In this document: positions 29,922 to 56,677 of the stretch, piece by piece
Layout of the letters: the number at the start of each line of letters is the position of its first letter
Position numbering within the stretch: position 1 is the stretch's first letter
NCBI GenBank assembly: GCA_029207755.1
Contig: JARCOQ010000017.1
Span: forward strand, 9,560,945 to 9,624,944
Reading direction: 5' to 3'
From: Chamaea fasciata
Taxonomy: Eukaryota; Chordata; Aves; Passeriformes; Sylviidae
DNA length: 64,000 bases
Notes under the pieces: model-generated
Database searches by the model: none
Told to the model about the DNA's origin: nothing
The model's input: the letters and a program-made list of their open reading frames with translations, nothing else
Made by a program: the position numbers and the translations under genes

Positions 29922-29944
29922 ATGTTTGTACTGGAAAGGAAAAA

Positions 29945-29950
29945 AATAAA
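29945..29950 (+). terminator. AATAAA at macrosatellite entry / distal EMILIN3 poly(A) candidate
   Basis: Lies 24 bp inside the unit and is repeated in every copy. In unit 1 it follows unique EMILIN3-side sequence and could be the original EMILIN3 distal poly(A) signal captured by the duplication. In later units it follows the preceding unit's end. Confidence 0.4.
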
Positions 29951-30134
29951 GTATTTCTTGCTGAGGTTTCCAAGATCAAAATGACTTGTGTGGCTTCCTG
30001 AAGTGGCAGACAAGGAGATGACTTAGACACACACAGGAGTCATGGAAGGAGAAGGTAGATGCCAGACTGGAGGAAGGAGCCCAGCAGTGCTCCTGCTTTC
30101 GTTTTACTTTATAACCACCCATGAAGAGAGAGCG

Positions 30135-30482
30135 GGGGATGCTCAGGCTGGAGAAGAGAGGGCCATGGGGACGCCTCGCTGTGACCGTGCAGGACTTGAA
30201 GGGTCCCACAGGAAAGATGGGGACAGAGTGTTCAACAGGGTCTGTGGTGGGAGGAGAAGGGGGGATGGCTTTCAACTGCAGGAGGTCGATTTGGGCTGTA
30301 CCTAAGGAAACCGGCATTTTACAGTAAGGGTGGTGAGGCACAGGCCCAGGCTGTGCACAGAGGCTGGGGATGCCCCACCCCTGGGAACGTGCAAGGCCAG
30401 GCTGGAGGAGGCTCTGAGCAACCTGGTCTGGGGGGAGTTTGCTCCGGTTGGAATAAGATGAACTCTAGGGGCCTTTCCGAGC
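30135..30482 (+). mobile_element. CR1 3' fragment inside each unit (unit 1 copy)
   Basis: Sense-oriented, decayed CR1 3' sequence. Landmarks in order are GCTCAGGCTGGAGAAGAGAG, CACAGGAAAGATGGGGACAG, GGGTGGTGAGGCACAGGCCC, GCCCCACCCCTGGGAACGTG, AGGCCAGGCTGGAGGAGGCT and TCTGAGCAACCTGGTCTGGG. The same segment sits at unit offset about 213-560 in all 13 units, so the insertion predates amplification. Confidence 0.8.
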
Positions 30483-30594
30483 AAAATCAGGACAGGATTA
30501 GACCATTCAATGGTCCCTGTTGCCCAAAGTGGAGCGGTCCTGCAACTCCTGTAAGTCATAACGGAACAGTGCCCAAACGTTCCAACGCTTAACA

Positions 30595-31143
30595 ATGTAC
30601 CCACAATGCCATGATGTGTCCTGCAGCCCAGAAGAACCACACCCTGCTCAAAGGGTGCACCTGACAGTGCACGCGGCAAAGCGGGAAAGCGCAACTTTGA
30701 CACTGCTGTCAGAAGCGGTATCTCTCTGGTGCCTGGATCTTGCCATCCATCCCTGCAGGATGCCCACTTTTGCCCCAATGAAGGTACAGTGCCATTCCAT
30801 GGAGGTGGACACCCCCAAGTGCCTGGGTGGGCTGGAGCTCTGTGGGGATGGTGTGGGACAGGGACCCCACCGCGAGGTTTTGCTCCCTATGCAGGCTGGC
30901 ACAGACACTGAGGAAGCGATGGAGGTGGATGTGCAGGAGGAGATGGAGGAAGCGATGGAGGTGGATGTGCAGGAGGAGATGGAGGAAGCGATGGAGGTGG
31001 ATGTGCAGGAGGAGATGGAGGAAGCGATGGAGGTGGATGTGCAGGAGGAGATGGAGGAAGCGATGGAGGTGGATGTGCAGGATTACATTGAAGACATGGA
31101 TGTAGATGAGGAAAGTGAGGAGGAGAAGATGGTCTTGGGATGA
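30595..31143 (+). CDS. Unit 1 acidic-repeat open frame, 182 aa, unknown
   Basis: Unrecognised. From ATG 30595 the frame has about 100 non-repetitive residues with several Cys, then five copies of an acidic 12-aa unit (EEMEEAMEVDVQ) and the tail DYIEDMDVDEESEEEKMVLG. No signal peptide or membrane segment; a very acidic C-terminal half suggests a soluble or nuclear protein. A splice-acceptor-like cctatgcag before the repeat (about 30890) and tgcag before an internal ATG at about 30760 mean the true first exon may differ. A donor lies 24 nt after the stop, too close to provoke nonsense-mediated decay under the usual rule. The same frame is open in all 13 units, but units are so similar that this is weak evidence, and the 36-bp repeat is open in every frame. 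Coding status is unproven. Confidence 0.4.
   Translation: MYPQCHDVSCSPEEPHPAQRVHLTVHAAKRESATLTLLSEAVSLWCLDLAIHPCRMPTFAPMKVQCHSMEVDTPKCLGGLELCGDGVGQGPHREVLLPMQAGTDTEEAMEVDVQEEMEEAMEVDVQEEMEEAMEVDVQEEMEEAMEVDVQEEMEEAMEVDVQDYIEDMDVDEESEEEKMVLG
30681..30689 (+). promoter_or_regulatory. E2F-like motif in unit 1
   Basis: GCGGGAAAG fits an E2F core. It is present in all units except 2 and 7, where it reads GCGGAAAAG. It lies downstream of the ORF start assigned here, so it would be regulatory only if transcription starts nearby. Confidence 0.2.
30913..31080 (+). repeat. 36-bp minisatellite nested in unit 1
   Basis: Four full 36-bp repeats plus a 24-bp partial, starting GAAGCGATGGAGGTGG. The repeat is purine-rich on the + strand (GGAGG, GGTGG runs) and a multiple of three. 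It therefore reads as acidic (EEAMEVDVQEEM), basic (RWRWMCRRRWRK) or, on the other strand, Pro-rich or His/Leu-rich peptides without stops. Confidence 0.97.
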
Positions 31144-31167
31144 AGAGGGAGCCCAGCAGCAGCACAG

Positions 31168-31485
31168 GTAGGTGCTGGCCATGCCCTGCCCACAGGCAGA
31201 GTGGGTGCCCTGCTGCCAGGCTGGGGCTGGGCTGGGTGTCCCCACTCAGGGACACGGTGCCCGGGGGGGCCCTGGGTTCTGGTGGCACAAACACCACCCC
31301 CAGCCCGCCCTGGGCTGGCTTTGGGCCAGGCTTTGGGTCCCACTGCCTGGGGCCCAGCCCTCAGCCCCAGCCAGGCTCAGTGCTGGCAGCAGAGTCCCTC
31401 TCTGCCAGCGTGTCCCAGCCTGGGGGCACAGGGAATAGCCCTCTGTGCCTGCCTGGAGTGACCCTGTCACTTGCTTTTCTTCCAG
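31168..31485 (+). other. Predicted intron after the unit ORF stop
   Basis: Donor CACAG|gtaggt and acceptor ttgcttttcttccag|GG bound 318 bp. The sites are identical in all units. The intron begins 24 nt after the stop codon, so the third exon would be entirely 3' UTR. Confidence 0.5.
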
Positions 31486-31657
31486 GGCTGATGGAGATGC
31501 CGGGCTGGGATGCCACCCCTCTGGATACATGTTTTGGAGTTTGTTGTTACATTTTCATCTGTAAATATGTTTCAGAGTTTGTTGTTCTCTTCTGTATGGT
31601 TCATACATTGTTATATAGGTTTTTGTAATGTAAATACGTTTTAAAGACTGTTGTTGT

Positions 31658-31663
31658 AATAAA
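31658..31663 (+). terminator. Unit poly(A) signal (unit 1 copy)
   Basis: AATAAA within TGTAATAAAGATTC, followed about 30 nt later by GT-rich sequence (TAGTTTGTTTTTGTTGCTGC). This is the classic arrangement of a working poly(A) site, about 170 nt into the predicted last exon. Present in every unit. Confidence 0.6.
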
Positions 31664-31728
31664 GATTCTTACATTGAAAATGCCTCATATAGTTTGTTTT
31701 TGTTGCTGCTCTTCTGTAAATAAGCAAT

Positions 31729-31738
31729 CTTTATTTTT
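31729..31738 (-). terminator. Opposite-strand AATAAA facing the unit poly(A) signal
   Basis: On the + strand AATCTTTATT, that is AATAAAGATT read on the - strand. It mirrors the + strand AATAAAGATT about 65 bp to the left, forming an inverted pair repeated in all units. Confidence 0.4.
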
Positions 31739-31906
31739 CACACCCCAGCTCTACTTGCATTGGCTTTGGGTGCAGGGAGCATTTGCAGGGTTGTGGGTGC
31801 CTGGGGCTGGAGGTCCCTGGGGCTGTTGCCATGGTCATCCTTTAGTACAGAGGGTCCCAGTGACAGGTCACACTCTCCTTGCAGGTGCTTTGGACATGCA
31901 TGGTAC

Positions 31907-33855
31907 ATGTTTGTACTGGAAAGGAAAAAAATAAAGTATTTCTTGCTGAGGTTTCCAAGATCAAAATGACTTGTGTGGCTTCCTGAAGTGGCAGACAAGG
32001 AGATGACTTAGACACACACAGGAGTCATGGAAGGAGAAGGTAGATGCCAGACTGGAGGAAGGAGCCCAGCAGTGCTCCTGCTTTCGTTTTACTTTATAAC
32101 CACCCATGAAGAGAGAGTGGGGGATGCTCAGGCTGGAGAAGAGAGGGCCATGGGGACGCCTCGCTGTGACCGTGCAGGACTTGAAGGGTCCCACAGGAAA
32201 GATGGGGACAGAGTGTTCAACAGGGTCTGTGGTGGGAGGAGAAGGGGGGATGGCTTTCAACTGCAGGAGGTCGATTTGGGCTGTACCTAAGGAAACCGGC
32301 ATTTTACAGTAAGGGTGGTGAGGCACAGGCCCAGGCTGTGCACAGAGGTTGGGGATGCCCCACCCCTGGGAACGTGCAAGGCCAGGCTGGAGGAGGCTCT
32401 GAGCAACCTGGTCTGGGGGGAGTTTGCTCCGGTTGGAATAAGATGAACTCTAGGGGCCTTTCCGAGCAAAATCAGGACAGGATTAGACCATTCAATGGTC
32501 CCTGTTGCCCAAAGTGGAGCGGTCCTGCAACTCCTGTAAGTCATAACGGAACAGTGCCCAAACGTTCCAACGCTTAACAATGTACCCACAATGCCATGAT
32601 GTGTCCTGCAGCCCAGAAGAACCACACCCTGCTCAAAGGGTGCACCTGACAGTGCACGCGGCAAAGCGGAAAAGCGCAACTTTGACGCTGCTGTCAGAAG
32701 CGGTATCTCTCTGGTGCCTGGATCTTGCCATCCATCCCTGCAGGATGCCCACTTTTGCCCCAATGAAGGTACAGTGCCATTCCATGGAGGTGGACACCCC
32801 CAAGTGCCTGGGTGGGCTGGAGCTCTGTGGGGATGGTGTGGGACAGGGACCCCACCGCGAGGTTTTGCTCCCTATGCAGGCTGGCACAGACACTGAGGAA
32901 GCGATGGAGGTGGATGTGCAGGAGGAGATGGAGGAAGCGATGGAGGTGGATGTGCAGGAGGAGATGGAGGAAGCGATGGAGGTGGATGTGCAGGAGGAGA
33001 TGGAGGAAGCGATGGAGGTGGATGTGCAGGATTACATTGAAGACATGGATGTAGATGAGGAAAGTGAGGAGGAGAAGATGGTCTTGGGATGAAGAGGGAG
33101 CCCAGCAGCAGCACAGGTAGGTGCTGGCCATGCCCTGCCCACAGGCAGAGTGGGTGCCCTGCTGCCAGGCTGGGGCTGGGCTGGGTGTCCCCACTCAGGG
33201 ACACGGTGCCCGGGGGGGCCCTGGGTTCTGGTGGCACAAACACCACCCCCAGCCCGCCCTGGGCTGGCTTTGGGCCAGGCTTTGGGTCCCACTGCCTGGG
33301 GCCCAGCCCTCAGCCCCAGCCAGGCTCAGTGCTGGCAGCAGAGTCCCTCTCTGCCAGCGTGTCCCAGCCTGGGGGCACAGGGAATAGCCCTCTGTGCCTG
33401 CCTGGAGTGACCCTGTCACTTGCTTTTCTTCCAGGGCTGATGGAGATGCCGGGCAGGGATGCCACCCCTCTGGATACATGTTTTGGAGTTTGTTGTTACA
33501 TTTTCATCTGTAAATATGTTTCAGAGTTTGTTGTTCTCTTCTGTATGGTTCATACATTGTTATATAGGTTTTTGTAATGTAAATACGTTTTAAAGACTGT
33601 TGTTGTAATAAAGATTCTTACATTGAAAATGCCTCATATAGTTTGTTTTTGTTGCTGCTCTTCTGTAAATAAGCAATCTTTATTTTTCACACCCCAGCTC
33701 TACTTGCATTGGCTTTGGGTGCAGGGAGCGTTTGCAGGGTTGTGGGTGCCTGGGGCTGGAGGTCCCTGGGGCTGTTGCCATGGTCATCCTTTAGTACAGA
33801 GGGTCCCAGTGACAGGTCACACTCTCCTTGCAGGTGCTTTGGACATGCATGGTAC
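31907..33855 (+). repeat. Macrosatellite unit 2 (4 minisatellite copies)
   Basis: 1949 bp. Minisatellite 32898-33029. Shares the GAAAAG variant (Lys for Glu, AKRKSA) and the four-copy state with unit 7. Unit-closing segment has the GAGCGTTTG variant. Confidence 0.97.
32580..33092 (+). CDS. Unit 2 acidic-repeat open frame, 170 aa
   Basis: Same frame as in unit 1 with four acidic 12-aa repeats. One non-synonymous change in the N-terminal part (AKRKSA instead of AKRESA). Coding status unproven. Confidence 0.38.
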   Translation: MYPQCHDVSCSPEEPHPAQRVHLTVHAAKRKSATLTLLSEAVSLWCLDLAIHPCRMPTFAPMKVQCHSMEVDTPKCLGGLELCGDGVGQGPHREVLLPMQAGTDTEEAMEVDVQEEMEEAMEVDVQEEMEEAMEVDVQEEMEEAMEVDVQDYIEDMDVDEESEEEKMVLG

Positions 33856-35912
33856 ATGTTTGTACTGGAAAGGAAAAAAATAAAGTATTTCTTGCTGAGG
33901 TTTCCAAGATCAAAATGACTTGTGTGGCTTCCTGAAGTGGCAGACAAGGAGATGACTTAGACACACACAGGAGTCATGGAAGGAGAAGGTAGATGCCAGA
34001 CTGGAGGAAGGAGCCCAGCAGTGCTCCTGCTTTCGTTTTACTTTATAACCACCCATGAAGAGAGAGCGGGGGATGCTCAGGCTGGAGAAGAGAGGGCCAT
34101 GGAGACGCCTCGCTGTGACCGTGCAGGACTTGAAGGGTCCCACAGGAAAGATGGGGACAGAGTGTTCAACAGGGTCTGTGGTGGGAGGAGAAGGGGGGAT
34201 GGCTTTCAACTGCAGGAGGTCGATTTGGGCTGTACCTAAGGAAACCGGCATTTTACAGTAAGGGTGGTGAGGCACAGGCCCAGGCTGTGCACAGAGGCTG
34301 GGGATGCCCCACCCCTGGGAACGTGCAAGGCCAGGCTGGAGGAGGCTCTGAGCAACCTGGTCTGGGGGGAGTTTGCTCCGGTTGGAATAAGATGAACTCT
34401 AGGGGCCTTTCCGAGCAAAATCAGGACAGGATTAGACCATTCAATGGTCCCTGTTGCCCAAAGTGGAGCGGTCCTGCAACTCCTGTAAGTCATAACGGAA
34501 CAGTGCCCAAACGTTCCAACGCTTAACAATGTACCCACAATGCCATGATGTGTCCTGCAGCCCAGAAGAACCACACCCTGCTCAAAGGGTGCACCTGACA
34601 GTGCACGCGGCAAAGCGGGAAAGCGCAACTTTGACGCTGCTGTCAGAAGCGGTATCTCTCTGGTGCCTGGATCTTGCCATCCATCCCTGCAGGATGCCCA
34701 CTTTTGCCCCAATGAAGGTACAGTGCCATTCCATGGAGGTGGACACCCCCAAGTGCCTGGGTGGGCTGGAGCTCTGTGGGGATGGTGTGGGACAGGGACC
34801 CCACCGTGAGGTTTTGCTCCCTATGCAGGCTGGCACAGACACTGAGGAAGCGATGGAGGTGGATGTGCAGGAGGAGATGGAGGAAGCGATGGAGGTGGAT
34901 GTGCAGGAGGAGATGGAGGAAGCGATGGAGGTGGATGTGCAGGAGGAGATGGAGGAAGCGATGGAGGTGGATGTGCAGGAGGAGATGGAGGAAGCGATGG
35001 AGGTGGATGTGCAGGAGGAGATGGAGGAAGCGATGGAGGTGGATGTGCAGGAGGAGATGGAGGAAGCGATGGAGGTTGAAATGCAGGATTACATTGAAGA
35101 CATGGATGTAGATGAGGAAAGTGAGGAGGAGAAGATGGTCTTGGGATGAAGAGGGAGCCCAGCAGCAGCACAGGTAGGTGCTGGCCATGCCCTGCCCACA
35201 GGCAGAGTGGGTGCCCTGCTGCCAGGCTGGGGCTGGGCTGGGTGTCCCCACTCAGGGACACGGTGCCCGGGGGGGCCCTGGGTTCTGGTGGCACAAACAC
35301 CACCCCCAGCCCGCCCTGGGCTGGCTTTGGGCCAGGCTTTGGGTCCCACTGCCTGGGGCCCAGCCCTCAGCCCCAGCCAGGCTCAGTGCTGGCAGCAGAG
35401 TCCCTCTCTGCCAGCGTGTCCCAGCCTGGGGGCACAGGGAATAGCCCTCTGTGCCTGCCTGGAGTGACCCTGTCACTTGCTTTTCTTCCAGGGCTGATGG
35501 AGATGCCGGGCAGGGATGCCACCCCTCTGGATACATGTTTTGGAGTTTGTTGTTACATTTTCATCTGTAAATATGTTTCAGAGTTTGTTGTTCTCTTCTG
35601 TATGGTTCATACATTGTTATATAGGTTTTTGTAATGTAAATACGTTTTAAAGACTGTTGTTGTAATAAAGATTCTTACATTGAAAATGCCTCATATAGTT
35701 TGTTTTTGTTGCTGCTCTTCTGTAAATAAGCAATCTTTATTTTTCACACCCCAGCTCTACTTGCATTGGCTTTGGGTGCAGGGAGCATTTGCAGGGTTGT
35801 GGGTGCCTGGGGCTGGAGGTCCCTGGGGCTGTTGCCATGGTCATCCTTTAGTACAGAGGGTCCCAGTGACAGGTCACACTCTCCTTGCAGGTGCTTTGGA
35901 CATGCATGGTAC
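33856..35912 (+). repeat. Macrosatellite unit 3 (7 minisatellite copies)
   Basis: 2057 bp. Minisatellite 34847-35086. The last repeat ends GTTGAAATGCAG (EVEMQ) instead of GTGGATGTGCAG, as in units 5 and 9. Confidence 0.97.
34529..35149 (+). CDS. Unit 3 acidic-repeat open frame, 206 aa
   Basis: Seven acidic repeats, the last with EVEMQ in place of EVDVQ. Otherwise as unit 1. Coding status unproven. Confidence 0.38.
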   Translation: MYPQCHDVSCSPEEPHPAQRVHLTVHAAKRESATLTLLSEAVSLWCLDLAIHPCRMPTFAPMKVQCHSMEVDTPKCLGGLELCGDGVGQGPHREVLLPMQAGTDTEEAMEVDVQEEMEEAMEVDVQEEMEEAMEVDVQEEMEEAMEVDVQEEMEEAMEVDVQEEMEEAMEVDVQEEMEEAMEVEMQDYIEDMDVDEESEEEKMVLG

Positions 35913-37969
35913 ATGTTTGTACTGGAAAGGAAAAAAATAAAGTATTTCTTGCTGAGGTTTCCAAGATCAAAATGACTTGTGTGGCTTCCTGAAGTGGCAG
36001 ACAAGGAGATGACTTAGACACACACAGGAGTCATGGAAGGAGAAGGTAGATGCCAGACTGGAGGAAGGAGCCCAGCAGTGCTCCTGCTTTCGTTTTACTT
36101 TATAACCACCCATGAAGAGAGAGCGGGGGATGCTCAGGCTGGAGAAGAGAGGGCCATGGGGACGCCTCGCTGTGACCGTGCAGGACTTGAAGGGTCCCAC
36201 AGGAAAGATGGGGACAGAGTGTTCAACAGGGTCTGTGGTGGGAGGAGAAGGGGGGATGGCTTTCAACTGCAGGAGGTCGATTTGGGCTGTACCTAAGGAA
36301 ACCGGCATTTTACAGTAAGGGTGGTGAGGCACAGGCCCAGGCTGTGCACAGAGGCTGGGGATGCCCCACCCCTGGGAACGTGCAAGGCCAGGCTGGAGGA
36401 GGCTCTGAGCAACCTGGTCTGGGGGGAGTTTGCTCCGGTTGGAATAAGATGAACTCTAGGGGCCTTTCCGAGCAAAATCAGGACAGGATTAGACCATTCA
36501 ATGGTCCCTGTTGCCCAAAGTGGAGCGGTCCTGCAACTCCTGTAAGTCATAACGGAACAGTGCCCAAACGTTCCAACACTTAACAATGTACCCACAATGC
36601 CATGATGTGTCCTGCAGCCCAGAAGAACCACACCCTGCTCAAAGGGTGCACCTGACAGTGCACGCGGCAAAGCGGGAAAGCGCAACTTTGACACTGCTGT
36701 CAGAAGCGGTATCTCTCTGGTGCCTGGATCTTGCCATCCATCCCTGCAGGATGCCCACTTTTGCCCCAATGAAGGTACAGTGCCATTCCATGGAGGTGGA
36801 CACCCCCAAGTGCCTGGGTGGGCTGGAGCTCTGTGGGGATGGTGTGGGACAGGGACCCCACCGTGAGGTTTTGCTCCCTATGCAGGCTGGCACAGACACT
36901 GAGGAAGCGATGGAGGTGGATGTGCAGGAGGAGATGGAGGAAGCGATGGAGGTGGATGTGCAGGAGGAGATGGAGGAAGCGATGGAGGTGGATGTGCAGG
37001 AGGAGATGGAGGAAGCGATGGAGGTGGATGTGCAGGAGGAGATGGAGGAAGCGATGGAGGTGGATGTGCAGGAGGAGATGGAGGAAGCGATGGAGGTGGA
37101 TGTGCAGGAGGAGATGGAGGAAGCGATGGAGGTGGATGTGCAGGATTACATTGAAGACATGGATGTAGATGAGGAAAGTGAGGAGGAGAAGATGGTCTTG
37201 GGATGAAGAGGGAGCCCAGCAGCAGCACAGGTAGGTGCTGGCCATGCCCTGCCCACAGGCAGAGTGGGTGCCCTGCTGCCAGGCTGGGGCTGGGCTGGGT
37301 GTCCCCACTCAGGGACACGGTGCCCGGGGGGGCCCTGGGTTCTGGTGGCACAAACACCACCCCCAGCCCGCCCTGGGCTGGCTTTGGGCCAGGCTTTGGG
37401 TCCCACTGCCTGGGGCCCAGCCCTCAGCCCCAGCCAGGCTCAGTGCTGGCAGCAGAGTCCCTCTCTGCCAGCGTGTCCCAGCCTGGGGGCACAGGGAATA
37501 GCCCTCTGTGCCTGCCTGGAGTGACCCTGTCACTTGCTTTTCTTCCAGGGCTGATGGAGATGCCGGGCAGGGATGCCACCCCTCTGGATACATGTTTTGG
37601 AGTTTGTTGTTACATTTTCATCTGTAAATATGTTTCAGAGTTTGTTGTTCTCTTCTGTATGGTTCATACATTGTTATATAGGTTTTTGTAATGTAAATAC
37701 GTTTTAAAGACTGTTGTTGTAATAAAGATTCTTACATTGAAAATGCCTCATATAGTTTGTTTTTGTTGCTGCTCTTCTGTAAATAAGCAATCTTTATTTT
37801 TCACACCCCAGCTCTACTTGCATTGGCTTTGGGTGCAGGGAGCGTTTGCAGGGTTGTGGGTGCCTGGGGCTGGAGGTCCCTGGGGCTGTTGCCATGGTCA
37901 TCCTTTAGTACAGAGGGTCCCAGTGACAGGTCACACTCTCCTTGCAGGTGCTTTGGACATGCATGGTAC
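35913..37969 (+). repeat. Macrosatellite unit 4 (7 minisatellite copies)
   Basis: 2057 bp. Minisatellite 36904-37143. Carries CCAACACTTAAC (instead of CCAACGCTTAAC) just before the ORF and GAGCGTTTG in the closing segment, both shared with unit 6. Confidence 0.97.
36586..37206 (+). CDS. Unit 4 acidic-repeat open frame, 206 aa
   Basis: Seven acidic repeats, all EVDVQ. Identical at protein level to units 6, 8, 11 and 13. Coding status unproven. Confidence 0.38.
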   Translation: MYPQCHDVSCSPEEPHPAQRVHLTVHAAKRESATLTLLSEAVSLWCLDLAIHPCRMPTFAPMKVQCHSMEVDTPKCLGGLELCGDGVGQGPHREVLLPMQAGTDTEEAMEVDVQEEMEEAMEVDVQEEMEEAMEVDVQEEMEEAMEVDVQEEMEEAMEVDVQEEMEEAMEVDVQEEMEEAMEVDVQDYIEDMDVDEESEEEKMVLG

Positions 37970-40026
37970 ATGTTTGTACTGGAAAGGAAAAAAATAAAGT
38001 ATTTCTTGCTGAGGTTTCCAAGATCAAAATGACTTGTGTGGCTTCCTGAAGTGGCAGACAAGGAGATGACTTAGACACACACAGGAGTCATGGAAGGAGA
38101 AGGTAGATGCCAGACTGGAGGAAGGAGCCCAGCAGTGCTCCTGCTTTCGTTTTACTTTATAACCACCCATGAAGAGAGAGCGGGGGATGCTCAGGCTGGA
38201 GAAGAGAGGGCCATGGGGACGCCTCGCTGTGACCGTGCAGGACTTGAAGGGTCCCACAGGAAAGATGGGGACAGAGTGTTCAACAGGGTCTGTGGTGGGA
38301 GGAGAAGGGGGGATGGCTTTCAACTGCAGGAGGTCGATTTGGGCTGTACCTAAGGAAACCGGCATTTTACAGTAAGGGTGGTGAGGCACAGGCCCAGGCT
38401 GTGCACAGAGGCTGGGGATGCCCCACCCCTGGGAACGTGCAAGGCCAGGCTGGAGGAGGCTCTGAGCAACCTGGTCTGGGGGGAGTTTGCTCCGGTTGGA
38501 ATAAGATGAACTCTAGGGGCCTTTCCGAGCAAAATCAGGACAGGATTAGACCATTCAATGGTCCCTGTTGCCCAAAGTGGAGCGGTCCTGCAACTCCTGT
38601 AAGTCATAACGGAACAGTGCCCAAACGTTCCAACGCTTAACAATGTACCCACAATGCCATGATGTGTCCTGCAGCCCAGAAGAACCACACCCTGCTCAAA
38701 GGGTGCACCTGACAGTGCACGCGGCAAAGCGGGAAAGCGCAACTTTGACGCTGCTGTCAGAAGCGGTATCTCTCTGGTGCCTGGATCTTGCCATCCATCC
38801 CTGCAGGATGCCCACTTTTGCCCCAATGAAGGTACAGTGCCATTCCATGGAGGTGGACACCCCCAAGTGCCTGGGTGGGCTGGAGCTCTGTGGGGATGGT
38901 GTGGGACAGGGACCCCACCGTGAGGTTTTGCTCCCTATGCAGGCTGGCACAGACACTGAGGAAGCGATGGAGGTGGATGTGCAGGAGGAGATGGAGGAAG
39001 CGATGGAGGTGGATGTGCAGGAGGAGATGGAGGAAGCGATGGAGGTGGATGTGCAGGAGGAGATGGAGGAAGCGATGGAGGTGGATGTGCAGGAGGAGAT
39101 GGAGGAAGCGATGGAGGTGGATGTGCAGGAGGAGATGGAGGAAGCGATGGAGGTGGATGTGCAGGAGGAGATGGAGGAAGCGATGGAGGTTGAAATGCAG
39201 GATTACATTGAAGACATGGATGTAGATGAGGAAAGTGAGGAGGAGAAGATGGTCTTGGGATGAAGAGGGAGCCCAGCAGCAGCACAGGTAGGTGCTGGCC
39301 ATGCCCTGCCCACAGGCAGAGTGGGTGCCCTGCTGCCAGGCTGGGGCTGGGCTGGGTGTCCCCACTCAGGGACACGGTGCCCGGGGGGGCCCTGGGTTCT
39401 GGTGGCACAAACACCACCCCCAGCCCGCCCTGGGCTGGCTTTGGGCCAGGCTTTGGGTCCCACTGCCTGGGGCCCAGCCCTCAGCCCCAGCCAGGCTCAG
39501 TGCTGGCAGCAGAGTCCCTCTCTGCCAGCGTGTCCCAGCCTGGGGGCACAGGGAATAGCCCTCTGTGCCTGCCTGGAGTGACCCTGTCACTTGCTTTTCT
39601 TCCAGGGCTGATGGAGATGCCGGGCAGGGATGCCACCCCTCTGGATACATGTTTTGGAGTTTGTTGTTACATTTTCATCTGTAAATATGTTTCAGAGTTT
39701 GTTGTTCTCTTCTGTATGGTTCATACATTGTTATATAGGTTTTTGTAATGTAAATACGTTTTAAAGACTGTTGTTGTAATAAAGATTCTTACATTGAAAA
39801 TGCCTCATATAGTTTGTTTTTGTTGCTGCTCTTCTGTAAATAAGCAATCTTTATTTTTCACACCCCAGCTCTACTTGCATTGGCTTTGGGTGCAGGGAGC
39901 ATTTGCAGGGTTGTGGGTGCCTGGGGCTGGAGGTCCCTGGGGCTGTTGCCATGGTCATCCTTTAGTACAGAGGGTCCCAGTGACAGGTCACACTCTCCTT
40001 GCAGGTGCTTTGGACATGCATGGTAC
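37970..40026 (+). repeat. Macrosatellite unit 5 (7 minisatellite copies)
   Basis: 2057 bp. Minisatellite 38961-39200. Shares the terminal EVEMQ variant and GAGCATTTG closing variant with unit 3. Confidence 0.97.
38643..39263 (+). CDS. Unit 5 acidic-repeat open frame, 206 aa
   Basis: Seven acidic repeats, last with EVEMQ; identical at protein level to the unit 3 frame. Coding status unproven. Confidence 0.38.
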   Translation: MYPQCHDVSCSPEEPHPAQRVHLTVHAAKRESATLTLLSEAVSLWCLDLAIHPCRMPTFAPMKVQCHSMEVDTPKCLGGLELCGDGVGQGPHREVLLPMQAGTDTEEAMEVDVQEEMEEAMEVDVQEEMEEAMEVDVQEEMEEAMEVDVQEEMEEAMEVDVQEEMEEAMEVDVQEEMEEAMEVEMQDYIEDMDVDEESEEEKMVLG

Positions 40027-46089: not shown

Positions 46090-48110
46090 ATGTTTGTACC
46101 GGAAAGGAAAAAAATAAAGTATTTCTTGCTGAGGTTTCCAAGATCAAAATGACTTGTGTGGCTTCCTGAAGTGGCAGACAAGGAGATGACTTAGACACAC
46201 ACAGGAGTCATGGAAGGAGAAGGTAGATGCCAGACTGGAGGAAGGAGCCCAGCAGTGCTCCTGCTTTCGTTTTACTTTATAACCACCCATGAAGAGAGAG
46301 CGGGGGATGCTCAGGCTGGAGAAGAGAGGGCCATGGGGACGCCTCGCTGTGACCGTGCAGGACTTGAAGGGTCCCACAGGAAAGATGGGGACAGAGTGTT
46401 CAACAGGGTCTGTGGTGGGAGGAGAAGGGGGGATGGCTTTCAACTGCAGGAGGTCGATTTGGGCTGTACCTAAGGAAACCGGCATTTTACAGTAAGGGTG
46501 GTGAGGCACAGGCCCAGGCTGTGCACAGAGGCTGGGGATGCCCCACCCCTGGGAACGTGCAAGGCCAGGCTGGAGGAGGCTCTGAGCAACCTGGTCTGGG
46601 GGGAGTTTGCTCCGGTTGGAATAAGATGAACTTTAGGGGCCTTTCCGAGCAAAATCAGGACAGGATTAGACCATTCAATGGTCCCTGTTGCCCAAAGTGG
46701 AGCGGTCCTGCAACTCCTGTAAGTCATAACGGAACAGTGCCCAAACGTTCCAACGCTTAACAATGTACCCACAATGCCATGATGTGTCCTGCAGCCCAGA
46801 AGAACCACACCCTGCTCAAAGGGTGCACCTGACAGTGCACGCGGCAAAGCGGGAAAGCGCAACTTTGACGCTGCTGTCAGAAGCGGTATCTCTCTGGTGC
46901 CTGGATCTTGCCATCCATCCCTGCAGGATGCCCACTTTTGCCCCAATGAAGGTACAGTGCCATTCCATGGAGGTGGACACCCCCAAGTGCCTGGGTGGGC
47001 TGGAGCTCTGTGGGGATGGTGTGGGACAGGGACCCCACCGTGAGGTTTTGCTCCCTATGCAGGCTGGCACAGACACTGAGGAAGCGATGGAGGTGGATGT
47101 GCAGGAGGAGATGGAGGAAGCGATGGAGGTGGATGTGCAGGAGGAGATGGAGGAAGCGATGGAGGTGGATGTGCAGGAGGAGATGGAGGAAGCGATGGAG
47201 GTGGATGTGCAGGAGGAGATGGAGGAAGCGATGGAGGTGGATGTGCAGGAGGAGATGGAGGAAGCGATGGAGGTTGAAATGCAGGATTACATTGAAGACA
47301 TGGATGTAGATGAGGAAAGTGAGGAGGAGAAGATGGTCTTGGGATGAAGAGGGAGCCCAGCAGCAGCACAGGTAGGTGCTGGCCATGCCCTGCCCACAGG
47401 CAGAGTGGGTGCCCTGCTGCCAGGCTGGGGCTGGGCTGGGTGTCCCCACTCAGGGACACGGTGCCCGGGGGGGCCCTGGGTTCTGGTGGCACAAACACCA
47501 CCCCCAGCCCGCCCTGGGCTGGCTTTGGGCCAGGCTTTGGGTCCCACTGCCTGGGGCCCAGCCCTCAGCCCCAGCCAGGCTCAGTGCTGGCAGCAGAGTC
47601 CCTCTCTGCCAGCGTGTCCCAGCCTGGGGGCACAGGGAATAGCCCTCTGTGCCTGCCTGGAGTGACCCTGTCACTTGCTTTTCTTCCAGGGCTGATGGAG
47701 ATGCCGGGCAGGGATGCCACCCCTCTGGATACATGTTTTGGAGTTTGTTGTTACATTTTCATCTGTAAATATGTTTCAGAGTTTGTTGTTCTCTTCTGTA
47801 TGGTTCATACATTGTTATATAGGTTTTTGTAATGTAAATACGTTTTAAAGACTGTTGTTGTAATAAAGATTCTTACATTGAAAATGCCTCATATAGTTTG
47901 TTTTTGTTGCTGCTCTTCTGTAAATAAGCAATCTTTATTTTTCACACCCCAGCTCTACTTGCATTGGCTTTGGGTGCAGGGAGCATTTGCAGGGTTGTGG
48001 GTGCCTGGGGCTGGAGGTCCCTGGGGCTGTTGCCATGGTCATCCTTTAGTACAGAGGGTCCCAGTGACAGGTCACACTCTCCTTGCAGGTGCTTTGGACA
48101 TGCATGGTAC
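46090..48110 (+). repeat. Macrosatellite unit 9 (6 minisatellite copies)
   Basis: 2021 bp. Minisatellite 47081-47284, terminal EVEMQ variant. The unit starts with TGTACCGG rather than TGTACTGG. Confidence 0.97.
46763..47347 (+). CDS. Unit 9 acidic-repeat open frame, 194 aa
   Basis: Six acidic repeats, last with EVEMQ. Coding status unproven. Confidence 0.38.
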   Translation: MYPQCHDVSCSPEEPHPAQRVHLTVHAAKRESATLTLLSEAVSLWCLDLAIHPCRMPTFAPMKVQCHSMEVDTPKCLGGLELCGDGVGQGPHREVLLPMQAGTDTEEAMEVDVQEEMEEAMEVDVQEEMEEAMEVDVQEEMEEAMEVDVQEEMEEAMEVDVQEEMEEAMEVEMQDYIEDMDVDEESEEEKMVLG

Positions 48111-50167
48111 ATGTTTGTACCGGAAAGGAAAAAAATAAAGTATTTCTTGCTGAGGTTTCCAAGATCAAAATGACTTGTGTGGCTTCCTGAAGTGGCAGAC
48201 AAGGAGATGACTTAGACACACACAGGAGTCATGGAAGGAGAAGGTAGATGCCAGACTGGAGGAAGGAGCCCAGCAGTGCTCCTGCTTTCGTTTTACTTTA
48301 TAACCACCCATGAAGAGAGAGCGGGGGATGCTCAGGCTGGAGAAGAGAGGGCCATGGGGACGCCTTGCTGTGACCGTGCAGGACTTGAAGGGTCCCACAG
48401 GAAAGATGGGGACAGAGTGTTCAACAGGGTCTGTGGTGGGAGGAGAAGGGGGGATGGCTTTCAACTGCAGGAGGTCGATTTGGGCTGTACCTAAGGAAAC
48501 CGGCATTTTACAGTAAGGGTGGTGAGGCACAGGCCCAGGCTGTGCACAGAGGCTGGGGATGCCCCACCCCTGGGAACGTGCAAGGCCAGGCTGGAGGAGG
48601 CTCTGAGCAACCTGGTCTGGGGGGAGTTTGCTCCGGTTGGAATAAGATGAACTTTAGGGGCCTTTCCGAGCAAAATCAGGACAGGATTAGACCATTCAAT
48701 GGTCCCTGTTGCCCAAAGTGGAGCGGTCCTGCAACTCCTGTAAGTCATAACGGAACAGTGCCCAAACGTTCCAACGCTTAACAATGTACCCACAATGCCA
48801 TGATGTGTCCTGCAGCCCAGAAGAACCACACCCTGCTCAAAGGGTGCACCTGACAGTGCACGTGGCAAAGCGGGAAAGCGCAACTTTGACGCTGCTGTCA
48901 GAAGCGGTATCTCTCTGGTGCCTGGATCTTGCCATCCATCCCTGCAGGATGCCCACTTTTGCCCCAATGAAGGTACAGTGCCATTCCATGGAGGTGGACA
49001 CCCCCAAGTGCCTGGGTGGGCTGGAGCTCTGTGGGGATGGTGTGGGACAGGGACCCCACCGTGAGGTTTTGCTCCCTATGCAGGCTGGCACAGACACTGA
49101 GGAAGCGATGGAGGTGGATGTGCAGGAGGAGATGGAGGAAGCGATGGAGGTGGATGTGCAGGAGGAGATGGAGGAAGCGATGGAGGTGGATGTGCAGGAG
49201 GAGATGGAGGAAGCGATGGAGGTGGATGTGCAGGAGGAGATGGAGGAAGCGATGGAGGTGGATGTGCAGGAGGAGATGGAGGAAGCGATGGAGGTGGATG
49301 TGCAGGAGGAGATGGAGGAAGCGATGGAGGTGGATGTGCAGGATTACATTGAAGACATGGATGTAGATGAGGAAAGTGAGGAGGAGAAGATGGTCTTGGG
49401 ATGAAGAGGGAGCCCAGCAGCAGCACAGGTAGGTGCTGGCCATGCCCTGCCCACAGGCAGAGTGGGTGCCCTGCTGCCAGGCTGGGGCTGGGCTGGGTGT
49501 CCCCACTCAGGGACACGGTGCCCGGGGGGGCCCTGGGTTCTGGTGGCACAAACACCACCCCCAGCCCGCCCTGGGCTGGCTTTGGGCCAGGCTTTGGGTC
49601 CCACTGCCTGGGGCCCAGCCCTCAGCCCCAGCCAGGCTCAGTGCTGGCAGCAGAGTCCCTCTCTGCCAGCGTGTCCCAGCCTGGGGGCACAGGGAATAGC
49701 CCTCTGTGCCTGCCTGGAGTGACCCTGTCACTTGCTTTTCTTCCAGGGCTGATGGAGATGCCGGGCTGGGATGCCACCCCTCTGGATACATGTTTTAGAG
49801 TTTGTTGTTACATTTTCATCTGTAAATATGTTTCAGAGTTTGTTGTTCTCTTCTGTATGGTTCATACATTGTTATATAGGTTTTTGTAATGTAAATACGT
49901 TTTAAAGACTGTTGTTGTAATAAAGATTCTTACATTGAAAATGCCTCATATAGTTTGTTTTTGTTGCTGCTCTTCTGTAAATAAGCAATCTTTATTTTTC
50001 ACACCCCAGCTCTACTTGCATTGGCTTTGGGTGCAGGGAGCATTTGCAGGGTTGTGGGTGCCTGGGGCTGGAGGTCCCTGGGGCTGTTGCCATGGTCATC
50101 CTTTAGTACAGAGGGTCCCAGTGACAGGTCACACTCTCCTTGCAGGTGCTTTGGACATGCATGGTAC
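48111..50167 (+). repeat. Macrosatellite unit 10 (7 minisatellite copies)
   Basis: 2057 bp. Minisatellite 49102-49341. Carries the private GTG (HVAKRE) change in the N-terminal part of the ORF and TTTTAGAG in the last exon. Confidence 0.97.
48784..49404 (+). CDS. Unit 10 acidic-repeat open frame, 206 aa
   Basis: Seven acidic repeats; one private Ala-to-Val change in the N-terminal part. Coding status unproven. Confidence 0.38.
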   Translation: MYPQCHDVSCSPEEPHPAQRVHLTVHVAKRESATLTLLSEAVSLWCLDLAIHPCRMPTFAPMKVQCHSMEVDTPKCLGGLELCGDGVGQGPHREVLLPMQAGTDTEEAMEVDVQEEMEEAMEVDVQEEMEEAMEVDVQEEMEEAMEVDVQEEMEEAMEVDVQEEMEEAMEVDVQEEMEEAMEVDVQDYIEDMDVDEESEEEKMVLG

Positions 50168-52224
50168 ATGTTTGTACCGGAAAGGAAAAAAATAAAGTAT
50201 TTCTTGCTGAGGTTTCCAAGATTAAAATGACTTGTGTGGCTTCCTGAAGTGGCAGACAAGGAGATGACTTAGACACACACAGGAGTCATGGAAGGAGAAG
50301 GTAGATGCCAGACTGGAGGAAGGAGCCCAGCAGTGCTCCTGCTTTCGTTTTACTTTATAACCACCCATGAAGAGAGAGCGGGGGATGCTCAGGCTGGAGA
50401 AGAGAGGGCCATGGGGACGCCTCGCTGTGACCGTGCAGGACTTGAAGGGTCCCACAGGAAAGATGGGGACAGAGTGTTCAACAGGGTCTGTGGTGGGAGG
50501 AGAAGGGGGGATGGCTTTCAACTGCAGGAGGTCGATTTGGGCTGTACCTAAGGAAACTGGCATTTTACAGTAAGGGTGGTGAGGCACAGGCCCAGGCTGT
50601 GCACAGAGGCTGGGGATGCCCCACCCCTGGGAACGTGCAAGGCCAGGCTGGAGGAGGCTCTGAGCAACCTGGTCTGGGGGGAGTTTGCTCCGGTTGGAAT
50701 AAGATGAACTCTAGGGGCCTTTCCGAGCAAAATCAGGACAGGATTAGACCATTCAATGGTCCCTGTTGCCCAAAGTGGAGCGGTCCTGCAACTCCTGTAA
50801 GTCATAACGGAACAGTGCCCAAACGTTCCAACGCTTAACAATGTACCCACAATGCCATGATGTGTCCTGCAGCCCAGAAGAACCACACCCTGCTCAAAGG
50901 GTGCACCTGACAGTGCACGCGGCAAAGCGGGAAAGCGCAACTTTGACGCTGCTGTCAGAAGCGGTATCTCTCTGGTGCCTGGATCTTGCCATCCATCCCT
51001 GCAGGATGCCCACTTTTGCCCCAATGAAGGTACAGTGCCATTCCATGGAGGTGGACACCCCCAAGTGCCTGGGTGGGCTGGAGCTCTGTGGGGATGGTGT
51101 GGGACAGGGACCCCACCGTGAGGTTTTGCTCCCTATGCAGGCTGGCACAGACACTGAGGAAGCGATGGAGGTGGATGTGCAGGAGGAGATGGAGGAAGCG
51201 ATGGAGGTGGATGTGCAGGAGGAGATGGAGGAAGCGATGGAGGTGGATGTGCAGGAGGAGATGGAGGAAGCGATGGAGGTGGATGTGCAGGAGGAGATGG
51301 AGGAAGCGATGGAGGTGGATGTGCAGGAGGAGATGGAGGAAGCGATGGAGGTGGATGTGCAGGAGGAGATGGAGGAAGCGATGGAGGTGGATGTGCAGGA
51401 TTACATTGAAGACATGGATGTAGATGAGGAAAGTGAGGAGGAGAAGATGGTCTTGGGATGAAGAGGGAGCCCAGCAGCAGCACAGGTAGGTGCTGGCCAT
51501 GCCCTGCCCACAGGCAGAGTGGGTGCCCTGCTGCCAGGCTGGGGCTGGGCTGGGTGTCCCCACTCAGGGACACGGTGCCCGGGGGGGCCCTGGGTTCTGG
51601 TGGCACAAACACCACCCCCAGCCCGCCCTGGGCTGACTTTGGGCCAGGCTTTGGGTCCCACTGCCTGGGGCCCAGCCCTCAGCCCCAGCCAGGCTCAGTG
51701 CTGGCAGCAGAGTCCCTCTCTGCCAGCGTGTCCCAGCCTGGGGGCACAGGGAATAGCCCTCTGTGCCTGCCTGGAGTGACCCTGTCACTTGCTTTTCTTC
51801 CAGGGCTGATGGAGATGCCGGGCTGGGATGCCACCCCTCTGGATACATGTTTTAGAGTTTGTTGTTACATTTTCATCTGTAAATATGTTTCAGAGTTTGT
51901 TGTTCTCTTCTGTATGGTTCATACATTGTTATATAGGTTTTTGTAATGTAAATACGTTTTAAAGACTGTTGTTGTAATAAAGATTCTTACATTGAAAATG
52001 CCTCATATAGTTTGTTTTTGTTGCTGCTCTTCTGTAAATAAGCAATCTTTATTTTTCACACCCCAGCTCTACTTGCATTGGCTTTGGGTGCAGGGAGCAT
52101 TTGCAGGGTTGTGGGTGCCTGGGGCTGGAGGTCCCTGGGGCTGTTGCCATGGTCATCCTTTAGTACAGAGGGTCCCAGTGACAGGTCACACTCTCCTTGC
52201 AGGTGCTTTGGACATGCATGGTAC
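50168..52224 (+). repeat. Macrosatellite unit 11 (7 minisatellite copies)
   Basis: 2057 bp. Minisatellite 51159-51398. Private variants AGATTAAAATG near the start, GAAACTGGC before the CR1 end, and GGGCTGACTT in the intron. Confidence 0.97.
50841..51461 (+). CDS. Unit 11 acidic-repeat open frame, 206 aa
   Basis: Seven acidic repeats, all EVDVQ. Coding status unproven. Confidence 0.38.
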   Translation: MYPQCHDVSCSPEEPHPAQRVHLTVHAAKRESATLTLLSEAVSLWCLDLAIHPCRMPTFAPMKVQCHSMEVDTPKCLGGLELCGDGVGQGPHREVLLPMQAGTDTEEAMEVDVQEEMEEAMEVDVQEEMEEAMEVDVQEEMEEAMEVDVQEEMEEAMEVDVQEEMEEAMEVDVQEEMEEAMEVDVQDYIEDMDVDEESEEEKMVLG

Positions 52225-54245
52225 ATGTTTGTACTGGAAAGGAAAAAAATAAAGTATTTCTTGCTGAGGTTTCCAAGATCAAAATGACTTGTGTGGCTTC
52301 CTGAAGTGGCAGACAAGGAGATGACTTAGACACACACAGGAGTCATGGAAGGAGAAGGTAGATGCCAGACTGGAGGAAGGAGCCCAGCAGTGCTCCTGCT
52401 TTCGTTTTACTTTATAACCACCCATGAAGAGAGAGCGGGGGATGCTCAGGCTGGAGAAGAGAGGGCCATGGGGACGCCTCGCTGTGACCGTGCAGGACTT
52501 GAAGGGTCCCACAGGAAAGATGGGGACAGAGTGTTCAACAGGGTCTGTGGTGGGAGGAGAAGGGGGGATGGCTTTCAACTGCAGGAGGTCGATTTGGGCT
52601 GTACCTAAGGAAACCGGCATTTTACAGTAAGGGTGGTGAGGCACAGGCCCAGGCTGTGCACAGAGGCTGGGGATGCCCCACCCCTGGGAACGTGCAAGGC
52701 CAGGCTGGAGGAGGCTCTGAGCAACCTGGTCTGGGGGGAGTTTGCTCCGGTTGGAATAAGATGAACTCTAGGGGCCTTTCCGAGCAAAATCAGGACAGGA
52801 TTAGACCATTCAATGGTCCCTGTTGCCCAAAGTGGAGCGGTCCTGCAACTCCTGTAAGTCATAACGGAACAGTGCCCAAACGTTCCAACGCTTAACAATG
52901 TACCCACAATGCCATGATGTGTCCTGCAGCCCAGAAGAACCACACCCTGCTCAAAGGGTGCACCTGACAGTGCACGCGGCAAAGCGGGAAAGCGCAACTT
53001 TGACGCTGCTGTCAGAAGCGGTATCTCTCTGGTGCCTGGATCTTGCCATCCATCCCTGCAGGATGCCCACTTTTGCCCCAATGAAGGTACAGTGCCATTC
53101 CATGGAGGTGGACACCCCCAAGTGCCTGGGTGGGCTGGAGCTCTGTGGGGATGGTGTGGGACAGGGACCCCACCGTGAGGTTTTGCTCCCTATGCAGGCT
53201 GGCACAGACACTGAGGAAGCGATGGAGGTGGATGTGCAGGAGGAGATGGAGGAAGCGATGGAGGTGGATGTGCAGGAGGAGATGGAGGAAGCGATGGAGG
53301 TGGATGTGCAGGAGGAGATGGAGGAAGCGATGGAGGTGGATGTGCAGGAGGAGATGGAGGAAGCGATGGAGGTGGATGTGCAGGAGGAGATGGAGGAAGC
53401 GATGGAGGTGGATGTGCAGGATTACATTGAAGACATGGATGTAGATGAGGAAAGTGAGGAGGAGAAGATGGTCTTGGGATGAAGAGGGAGCCCAGCAGCA
53501 GCACAGGTAGGTGCTGGCCATGCCCTGCCCACAGGCAGAGTGGGTGCCCTGCTGCCAGGCTGGGGCTGGGCTGGGTGTCCCCACTCAGGGACACGGTGCC
53601 CGGGGGGGCCCTGGGTTCTGGTGGCACAAACACCACCCCCAGCCCGCCCTGGGCTGGCTTTGGGCCAGGCTTTGGGTCCCACTGCCTGGGGCCCAGCCCT
53701 CAGCCCCAGCCAGGCTCAGTGCTGGCAGCAGAGTCCCTCTCTGCCAGCGTGTCCCAGCCTGGGGGCACAGGGAATAGCCCTCTGTGCCTGCCTGGAGTGA
53801 CCCTGTCACTTGCTTTTCTTCCAGGGCTGATGGAGATGCCGGGCTGGGATGCCACCCCTCTGGATACATGTTTTGGAGTTTGTTGTTACATTTTCATCTG
53901 TAAATATGTTTCAGAGTTTGTTGTTCTCTTCTGTATGGTTCATACATTGTTATATAGGTTTTTGTAATGTAAATACGTTTTAAAGACTGTTGTTGTAATA
54001 AAGATTCTTACATTGAAAATGCCTCATATAGTTTGTTTTTGTTGCTGCTCTTCTGTAAATAAGCAATCTTTATTTTTCACACCCCAGCTCTACTTGCATT
54101 GGCTTTGGGTGCAGGGAGCATTTGCAGGGTTGTGGGTGCCTGGGGCTGGAGGTCCCTGGGGCTGTTGCCATGGTCATCCTTTAGTACAGAGGGTCCCAGT
54201 GACAGGTCACACTCTCCTTGCAGGTGCTTTGGACATGCATGGTAC
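52225..54245 (+). repeat. Macrosatellite unit 12 (6 minisatellite copies)
   Basis: 2021 bp. Minisatellite 53216-53419. Begins TGTACTGG, unlike its neighbours 11 and 13. Confidence 0.97.
52898..53482 (+). CDS. Unit 12 acidic-repeat open frame, 194 aa
   Basis: Six acidic repeats, all EVDVQ. Coding status unproven. Confidence 0.38.
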   Translation: MYPQCHDVSCSPEEPHPAQRVHLTVHAAKRESATLTLLSEAVSLWCLDLAIHPCRMPTFAPMKVQCHSMEVDTPKCLGGLELCGDGVGQGPHREVLLPMQAGTDTEEAMEVDVQEEMEEAMEVDVQEEMEEAMEVDVQEEMEEAMEVDVQEEMEEAMEVDVQEEMEEAMEVDVQDYIEDMDVDEESEEEKMVLG

Positions 54246-56302
54246 ATGTTTGTACCGGAAAGGAAAAAAATAAAGTATTTCTTGCTGAGGTTTCCAAGAT
54301 CAAAATGACTTGTGTGGCTTCCTGAAGTGGCAGACAAGGAGATGACTTAGACACACACAGGAGTCATGGAAGGAGAAGGTAGATGCCAGACTGGAGGAAG
54401 GAGCCCAGCAGTGCTCCTGCTTTCGTTTTACTTTATAACCACCCATGAAGAGAGAGCGGGGGATGCTCAGGCTGGAGAAGAGAGGGCCATGGGGACGCCT
54501 CGCTGTGACCGTGCAGGACTTGAAGGGTCCCACAGGAAAGATGGGGACAGAGTGTTCAACAGGGTCTGTGGTGGGAGGAGAAGGGGGGATGGCTTTCAAC
54601 TGCAGGAGGTCGATTTGGGCTGTACCTAAGGAAACCGGCATTTTACAGTAAGGGTGGTGAGGCACAGGCCCAGGCTGTGCACAGAGGCTGGGGATGCCCC
54701 ACCCCTGGGAACGTGCAAGGCCAGGCTGGAGGAGGCTCTGAGCAACCTGGTCTGGGGGGAGTTTGCTCCGGTTGGAATAAGATGAACTCTAGGGGCCTTT
54801 CCGAGCAAAATCAGGACAGGATTAGACCATTCAATGGTCCCTGTTGCCCAAAGTGGAGCGGTCCTGCAACTCCTGTAAGTCATAACGGAACAGTGCCCAA
54901 ACGTTCCAACGCTTAACAATGTACCCACAATGCCATGATGTGTCCTGCAGCCCAGAAGAACCACACCCTGCTCAAAGGGTGCACCTGACAGTGCACGCGG
55001 CAAAGCGGGAAAGCGCAACTTTGACGCTGCTGTCAGAAGCGGTATCTCTCTGGTGCCTGGATCTTGCCATCCATCCCTGCAGGATGCCCACTTTTGCCCC
55101 AATGAAGGTACAGTGCCATTCCATGGAGGTGGACACCCCCAAGTGCCTGGGTGGGCTGGAGCTCTGTGGGGATGGTGTGGGACAGGGACCCCACCGTGAG
55201 GTTTTGCTCCCTATGCAGGCTGGCACAGACACTGAGGAAGCGATGGAGGTGGATGTGCAGGAGGAGATGGAGGAAGCGATGGAGGTGGATGTGCAGGAGG
55301 AGATGGAGGAAGCGATGGAGGTGGATGTGCAGGAGGAGATGGAGGAAGCGATGGAGGTGGATGTGCAGGAGGAGATGGAGGAAGCGATGGAGGTGGATGT
55401 GCAGGAGGAGATGGAGGAAGCGATGGAGGTGGATGTGCAGGAGGAGATGGAGGAAGCGATGGAGGTGGATGTGCAGGATTACATTGAAGACATGGATGTA
55501 GATGAGGAAAGTGAGGAGGAGAAGATGGTCTTGGGATGAAGAGGGAGCCCAGCAGCAGCACAGGTAGGTGCTGGCCATGCCCTGCCCACAGGCAGAGTGG
55601 GTGCCCTGCTGCCAGGCTGGGGCTGGGCTGGGTGTCCCCACTCAGGGACACGGTGCCCGGGGGGGCCCTGGGTTCTGGTGGCACAAACACCACCCCCAGC
55701 CCGCCCTGGGCTGGCTTTGGGCCAGGCTTTGGGTCCCACTGCCTGGGGCCCAGCCCTCAGCCCCAGCCAGGCTCAGTGCTGGCAGCAGAGTCCCTCTCTG
55801 CCAGCGTGTCCCAGCCTGGGGGCACAGGGAATAGCCCTCTGTGCCTGCCTGGAGTGACCCTGTCACTTGCTTTTCTTCCAGGGCTGATGGAGATGCCGGG
55901 CTGGGATGCCACCCCTCTGGATACATGTTTTAGAGTTTGTTGTTACATTTTCATCTGTAAATATGTTTCAGAGTTTGTTGTTCTCTTCTGTATGGTTCAT
56001 ACATTGTTATATAGGTTTTTGTAATGTAAATACGTTTTAAAGACTGTTGTTGTAATAAAGATTCTTACATTGAAAATGCCTCATATAGTTTGTTTTTGTT
56101 GCTGCTCTTCTGTAAATAAGCAATCTTTATTTTTCACACCCCAGCTCTACTTGCATTGGCTTTGGGTGCAGGGAGCATTTGCAGGGTTGTGGGTGCCTGG
56201 GGCTGGAGGTCCCTGGGGCTGTTGCCATGGTCATCCTTTAGTACAGAGGGTCCCAGTGACAGGTCACACTCTCCTTGCAGGTGCTTTGGACATGCATGGT
56301 AC
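54246..56302 (+). repeat. Macrosatellite unit 13 (7 minisatellite copies)
   Basis: 2057 bp, the last complete unit. Minisatellite 55237-55476. Confidence 0.97.
54919..55539 (+). CDS. Unit 13 acidic-repeat open frame, 206 aa
   Basis: Seven acidic repeats, all EVDVQ. Coding status unproven. Confidence 0.38.
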   Translation: MYPQCHDVSCSPEEPHPAQRVHLTVHAAKRESATLTLLSEAVSLWCLDLAIHPCRMPTFAPMKVQCHSMEVDTPKCLGGLELCGDGVGQGPHREVLLPMQAGTDTEEAMEVDVQEEMEEAMEVDVQEEMEEAMEVDVQEEMEEAMEVDVQEEMEEAMEVDVQEEMEEAMEVDVQEEMEEAMEVDVQDYIEDMDVDEESEEEKMVLG

Positions 56303-56677
56303 ATGTTTGTACCGGAAAGGAAAAAAATAAAGTATTTCTTGCTGAGGTTTCCAAGATCAAAATGACTTGTGTGGCTTCCTGAAGTGGCAGACAAGGAGAT
56401 GACTTAGACACACACAGGAGTCATGGAAGGAGAAGGTAGATGCCAGACTGGAGGAAGGAGCCCAGCAGTGCTCCTGCTTTCGTTTTACTTTATAACCACC
56501 CATGAAGAGAGAGCGGGGGATGCTCAGGCTGGAGAAGAGAGGGCCATGGGGACGCCTCGCTGTGACCGTGCAGGACTTGAAGGGTCCCACAGGAAAGATG
56601 GGGACAGTCATCCTTTTGTACAGAGGGTCCCAGTGACAGGTCACACTCTCCTTGCAGGTGCTTTGGACGTGCATGGT
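56303..56677 (+). repeat. Truncated unit 14 with internal deletion
   Basis: 56303-56607 matches the first 305 bp of a unit, up to GGGGACAG inside the CR1 fragment. The sequence then jumps to the unit-closing segment (TCATCCTT, then GAGGGTCCCAGTGACAGGTC) at 56608-56677. About 1.6-1.7 kb, including ORF, minisatellite and intron, is missing. The closing segment ends GACGTGCATGGTAAACG and runs into unique sequence, marking the right edge of the array. Confidence 0.9.

Follow-up and report, generated by a model that had tools for sequence, protein, structure and literature searches.

Several human macrosatellites carry an open reading frame (ORF) in each unit; TAF11-Like, PRR20, RS447 and D4Z4 are the examples named in the passages of PMC3018141 considered here. 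In the same passages, TAF11-Like has a 3.4-kb unit whose coding variants preserve the frame, it and PRR20 are ORF-bearing and testis-expressed, copy-number polymorphism and testis expression are shown for human arrays, and SST1 has two arrays on the same chromosome, separated by 1 Mb (PMC3018141). Sdic of Drosophila, according to passages of PMC7475035 and PMC10589255, is a lineage-specific tandem family of near-identical copies, confined to a single cluster in one species and with a role in sperm competition. Songbird-unique genes, in the passages of PMC4377847 that treat them, include TMRA, a 330-amino acid (aa) transmembrane C-type-lectin-like protein, and one gene of the group lacks an identifiable parent gene. 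Here we describe a tandem array in a 64,000-nucleotide stretch of contig JARCOQ010000017.1 from Chamaea fasciata (hereafter, the window). It probably represents the amplification of one gene from a multi-copy orphan family of passerines, a family predicted to encode small, very acidic MEVD-repeat proteins and to have expanded in tandem repeatedly. The array (array 1) lies between genes that we take to be EMILIN3 and LPIN3 based on domains, motifs and, in part, the neighbourhood presumed for them.

Like the human macrosatellites, array 1 consists of kilobase-sized tandem units with an ORF each, and it is known here from the sequence of one assembly. Compared with what those passages describe, its units differ in encoding a predicted orphan acidic protein, in having two introns and in being CpG-poor. 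It also differs in that its family occupies two contigs with three or more arrays, among them an inverted sister array that sits within a resident paralog. Sdic, as a lineage-specific tandem family with near-identical copies, is a close evolutionary analogy, but it is a single cluster with a role in sperm competition, whereas the bird family has several arrays and is known from its sequence. Like songbird-unique genes, the MEVD-repeat family may be restricted to passerines, the order of all named hosts among the candidates scored; TMRA is a different protein, and no acidic MEVD-repeat family appears among the passages on songbird-unique genes (PMC4377847). The original prediction, made from the window alone, knew of no described avian array of this kind at this locus. 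No description of the array or family was found in the literature that we searched either, where several queries were broad, one was a weak test and subscription papers were mostly outside the scope. The restriction to one locus proved too narrow: outside the window, the same genome holds an inverted array of 15 units (array 2), a third array of 16 units and dispersed copies. What is new here is the gene family; the architecture is of a known kind.

Thirteen gene-like units in array 1

Array 1 comprises 13 complete head-to-tail units on the forward strand (29921..56301), starting at positions 29921, 31906, 33855, 35912, 37969, 40026, 42083, 44032, 46090, 48111, 50168, 52224 and 54246 (placed by a fuzzy anchor with a precision of ±1 base). 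With unit lengths of 1,949–2,058 bp and pairwise identities of 99.44–100% over aligned bases, the 13 units of about 2 kb first reported for this locus were recovered; chance cannot account for an array so long and so uniform. Apart from ±1 base, units differ in length only by 36-bp steps in a coding repeat of 12 aa. The fourth and sixth units are identical and the third and fifth are 99.95% identical, so a two-unit block has been duplicated inside the array.

The ORF was intact and both splice donors, both acceptors and the AATAAA context were present in 13/13 units, in agreement with the ORF, well-formed splice sites and poly(A) signal per unit that had been predicted. The predicted splice points of unit 1 were also correct (last exon base 31167, exon 3 from 31486), although they delimit only the 318-bp intron, and a further intron of 111 bp (30784–30894) had been overlooked. 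The predicted product, spliced over this 111-bp intron, runs from MPTFAPMK through AGTDTEEAMEVDVQ and several EEMEEAMEVDVQ blocks to a terminal DYIEDMDVDEESEEEKMVLG; V3-type units have one variant repeat block. All 13 ORFs encode acidic MEVD-type repeats and the same type of C-terminus (D/E-rich, then M-V/I-L-G), at lengths of 114 aa (eight units), 102 aa (two), 90 aa (one) and 78 aa (two). Searches for structured RNA gave no Rfam match at E values up to 1 in positions 27000–36500, and a scan with bacterial settings found no tRNA.

A putative passerine family and the case for coding

Four protein relatives were found by a single-sequence search. A profile of seven sequences extended this set to 44 relatives (29 named, from 13 species; 15 without a species name), and a profile of 18 sequences returned 41 (32 named and nine without a species name) and added Prinia. 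All 14 named host species are passerines among the best 8,000 candidates scored in each profile search, to which this pattern is limited; their order is presumed except for Lepidothrix, which was looked up (Passeriformes, Pipridae). The canonical C-terminus is retained in 30 of the 44 relatives, including this manakin, with a different ending in the other 14. Lepidothrix is represented by two isoform models that differ in the splicing of intron 1, and the hawfinch has one cluster with 13 member sequences on one contig, which suggests a tandem array in that species too.

No Pfam family scored above the cut-off in the 12 family proteins scanned, and the sub-threshold matches (MpsC, HrpB_C, SVA, Inhibitor_I53, NusG_II and MalQ_N) were set aside, as they look like low-complexity noise. 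Database names of the relatives include ASF1-like, LAS1L-like, TRIM44-like and HDT2-like, and at least eight unrelated automatic names occur within the one family (P0001, P0010, P0018, P0019, P0023, P0031, P0033 and P0035); this mixture apparently stems from low-complexity similarity. An identity with ASF1, taken from the name of P0001 ("histone chaperone ASF1-like"), was rejected, no Pfam family being found for P0001 at E 1. The 18-sequence profile also gave two weak or odd matches, an olfactory-receptor-like protein and a protein with a reverse-transcriptase domain, which are probably chance hits or fused models.

Several comparisons point to coding constraint on the family, which we regard as likely. 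The ratio of nonsynonymous to synonymous differences per site (pN/pS) was 0.27 between array 1 and the third array, over 20 codons only. Across 26 units, the 345 coding columns show a single three-site change, against 32 variable sites among the 1714 columns of non-coding sequence (P = 0.018, with the three coding sites counted as one event by our choice). In separate arrays, the coding repeat has periods divisible by three: 36 bp in array 1 versus 33, 66 and 30 bp in one 10-kb stretch of the third array. In the third array, the frame is kept to the terminal EEPMILG in 14 of the 16 units (EEPMFLG in one of these).

Other observations weigh against a coding gene. At non-repeat coding sites alone, 0/102 were variable, a deficit that is not significant (P = 0.16), and pN/pS was 0.5–0.7 in other cross-group pairs, similar with a frame-shifted copy, and 0.45–0.91 within the C9 group. 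The 28 intact frames of arrays 1 and 2 (13 + 15) are not independent because the units are homogenised. Two of the 16 units in the third array are frame-shifted and all 16 have ATA in place of the exon-1 ATG, while dispersed copies at C17:12.22, 13.42 and 14.08 Mb (C17 being the contig of the window) are also frame-shifted. Finally, the units are CpG-poor and have no CpG island (observed/expected 0.07–0.48 along unit 4). Here the predicted likeness to D4Z4-type macrosatellites, which holds for unit size and for one ORF per unit, breaks down: D4Z4-type units are CpG-dense.

These points would fit a macrosatellite expanding passively by unequal crossing-over, with an ORF left over from, or incidental to, a GA-rich minisatellite and without a selected product. 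Homogenisation alone could preserve 28 frames, and the weak constraint statistics, the frame shifts in several dispersed copies and the low CpG content are as expected for such an array. We nonetheless consider passive expansion unlikely, given the C-terminus retained in 30/44 relatives across passerines, the in-frame repeat periods in a separate array and the splice sites retained in 28/28 units of arrays 1 and 2. Overall, the coding status of the units is moderately supported, and a gene family that codes for protein is, on the sequence evidence, the probable interpretation.

Two further arrays and dispersed copies

Array 2 lies on the opposite strand of the same contig, 262 kb from array 1 (C17:9298750–9329011). 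Its 15 units are nearly identical to those of array 1; frames are intact in 15/15, and counts in this stretch came to 15 for the splice sites and 14 for the poly(A) context. Both edge units are hybrids: in the first, old diverged sequence gives way to that of the array at unit position ~800–840, and in the last, diverged sequence resumes at ~1500–1680. Array 2 is therefore a block of array units within an older, diverged resident paralog. On one side it is flanked by a matrilin gene, recognised by VWA and matrilin coiled-coil domains, and on the other by a KCNS-like channel gene with BTB and ion-transport domains, beyond which lies a SARAH domain of the STK4 type.

With the coding repeat excluded, diversity was 0.0030 within array 1, 0.0016 within array 2 and 0.0046 between them, and column 1797 shows a fixed difference between the two arrays, with nearly fixed ones at columns 393, 546 and 1934. 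These differences bear on whether array 2, or the number of units, is a false duplication of the assembly, as identities above 99% in a single assembly might suggest. Since the hybrid edge units and flanking genes of array 2 are also its own, such an artefact appears highly improbable. The direction of copying was read from unit positions 1–214, which gave only chance-level matches in 31 loci tested outside the arrays and which, where array 1 begins on the left, are continuous with unique DNA. Because this segment otherwise belongs to the array 1 site, the block was most likely copied from array 1 to array 2, a direction that we favour by a little. The opposite possibility, that array 2 with its diverged edges was the older source, was dropped: the edges are those of the resident paralog, and diversity is lower in array 2 than in array 1.

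The third array spans C15:17074000–17118200, with its 16 units spaced at 2,859–2,957 bp. Homology to the array 1 unit is mainly in the gene part (positions 829–1419, 72–75% identity), and one unit also matches positions 1710–1831. This distribution argues against the idea that the array acts as DNA, namely as a chromatin boundary or transcription stop between converging genes with an incidental ORF, because it is mainly the gene and not the spacer that the third array has in common with array 1. The idea draws on the position of array 1 between the converging 3' ends of EMILIN3 (forward strand, ORF end 27383) and LPIN3 (reverse strand, motif at 59764), but the matrilin and KCNS-like ORFs that flank array 2 are on the same strand and thus not convergent. 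We regard a role of this kind as very unlikely.

Further family copies occur on C9, on C46 and at C17:6.54 and C17:6.57 Mb, in addition to the frame-shifted copies above and four more at C17:14.13–14.28 Mb that were recognised by similarity. Copy counts are lower bounds, with the best 38 of 1192 candidates scored for the whole unit and the best 40 of 57 for the ORF-intron piece; the difference between 1192 and 57 candidates is cited here for the CR1-like fragment within the unit. Dispersal over several contigs, together with retrovirus-like sequence adjoining some copies, could indicate that the copies are a mobile element or gene cassette whose own ends drive its spread. Among the matches listed, however, homology boundaries vary between pairs of loci, which speaks for duplication at the DNA level and against a mobile element. 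Introns are retained, and no common termini were found among these matches, target-site duplications not being searched for. We consider spread of this kind most improbable.

Six of the family copies (L002–L007) lie at C17:13.42 and 14.08–14.28 Mb, and the five at 14.08–14.28 Mb follow one another at intervals of 45.4 kb in three cases and 64.7 kb in one. The copies at 13.42 and 14.08 Mb, both frame-shifted, are 99.7% identical over 8.5 kb, and in L002 the retrovirus-like sequence next to the family copy was recognised by eye. The copies at C17:6.54 and 6.57 Mb, C9 and C46 (L023–L026) share long matches of up to 5.3 kb at 94.6–98.3% identity, and by their sequences these loci are a segmental duplication carrying another subfamily with a changed C-terminus.

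Proposed origin, possible role and neighbourhood

The prediction that the array replaced a single-copy spacer was half right. Since the right flank of array 1 resembles the 3' flank of four dispersed copies (Table 1), it is probably the trace of a single family gene that earlier occupied the EMILIN3–LPIN3 site. This gene would have been duplicated in an interval from ~29,921 to the 3' flank at ~56,678, and array 1 would then have grown by unequal crossing-over. Later, a block would have been copied from array 1 into the paralog between matrilin and KCNS by ectopic recombination, array 1 being the proposed donor because array 2 units begin with the ~214 bp that otherwise belong to its site. An array of such genes would supply more of the protein, with the germline, and above all the testis, as the likeliest setting; we put this dosage role forward tentatively, as a doubtful proposal drawn from analogy.

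A broader and still more speculative scenario, which we think rather unlikely as a whole, places the birth of the family early in passerine history, probably from a GA-rich minisatellite next to a CR1 element. The family would since have behaved as an autosomal ampliconic gene, amplified into macrosatellites repeatedly, at various sites and in various species, with germline dosage or conflict as the selective force. In the same scenario, sequence is exchanged between the two inverted arrays, and the 262-kb matrilin–EMILIN3 segment would be expected to invert recurrently. Inverted, near-identical arrays would in any case predispose the intervening segment to inversion, and the recurrent 262-kb inversion predicted by the pair is checkable in long-read bird genomes. 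If expressed, the units would belong to a perching-bird gene family that annotation has scattered under unrelated names, would parallel, on avian autosomes, the ampliconic and macrosatellite genes known from mammals and flies, and would provide clear landmarks with which gene birth, concerted evolution and dosage could be tested.

Table 1. Features of array 1 and its surroundings (window coordinates)
Feature	Position	Strand	Basis or identity
EMILIN3 (name presumed), last two large ORFs: 21105–21836 with EMI domain, and 25425–27383 plus stop	21105..27386	+	Domain match, ORFs
3' fragment upstream of exon 1, unit 1, presumably CR1-like; right end approximate	30126..30520	+	Sequence
Exon 1 coding part, unit 1 (MPTFAPMK); start putative	30760..30783	+	Frame still open upstream
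Intron 1, unit 1, 111 bp	30784..30894	+	Splice sites
Exon 2, unit 1, with 12-aa repeat; stop codon 31141–31143	30895..31167	+	ORF
Intron 2, unit 1, 318 bp, inside 3' untranslated region	31168..31485	+	Splice sites
Exon 3, unit 1 (3' untranslated region), AATAAA 31658–31663; 3' end approximate	31486..31690	+	Sequence
Truncated 14th copy, unit positions 1–306 fused to last 72 bp (1986–2057)	56302..56678	+	99.7% over 306 bp (56302–56607), 97.2% over 72 bp (56607–56678)
3' flank common to four dispersed copies (C9, C46, C17:6.54 and C17:6.57 Mb)	56617..56883	+	74–76% identity
LPIN3 (name presumed), DMDGT, presumably the lipin catalytic motif; gene pointing to the array	59750..59764	-	Motif

GC skew was positive in every 1-kb window of positions 30001–56000 (0.135–0.290), and outside this interval it was mostly small and of either sign. 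The positive skew across array 1 tracks the G-rich coding repeat and the reading strand.

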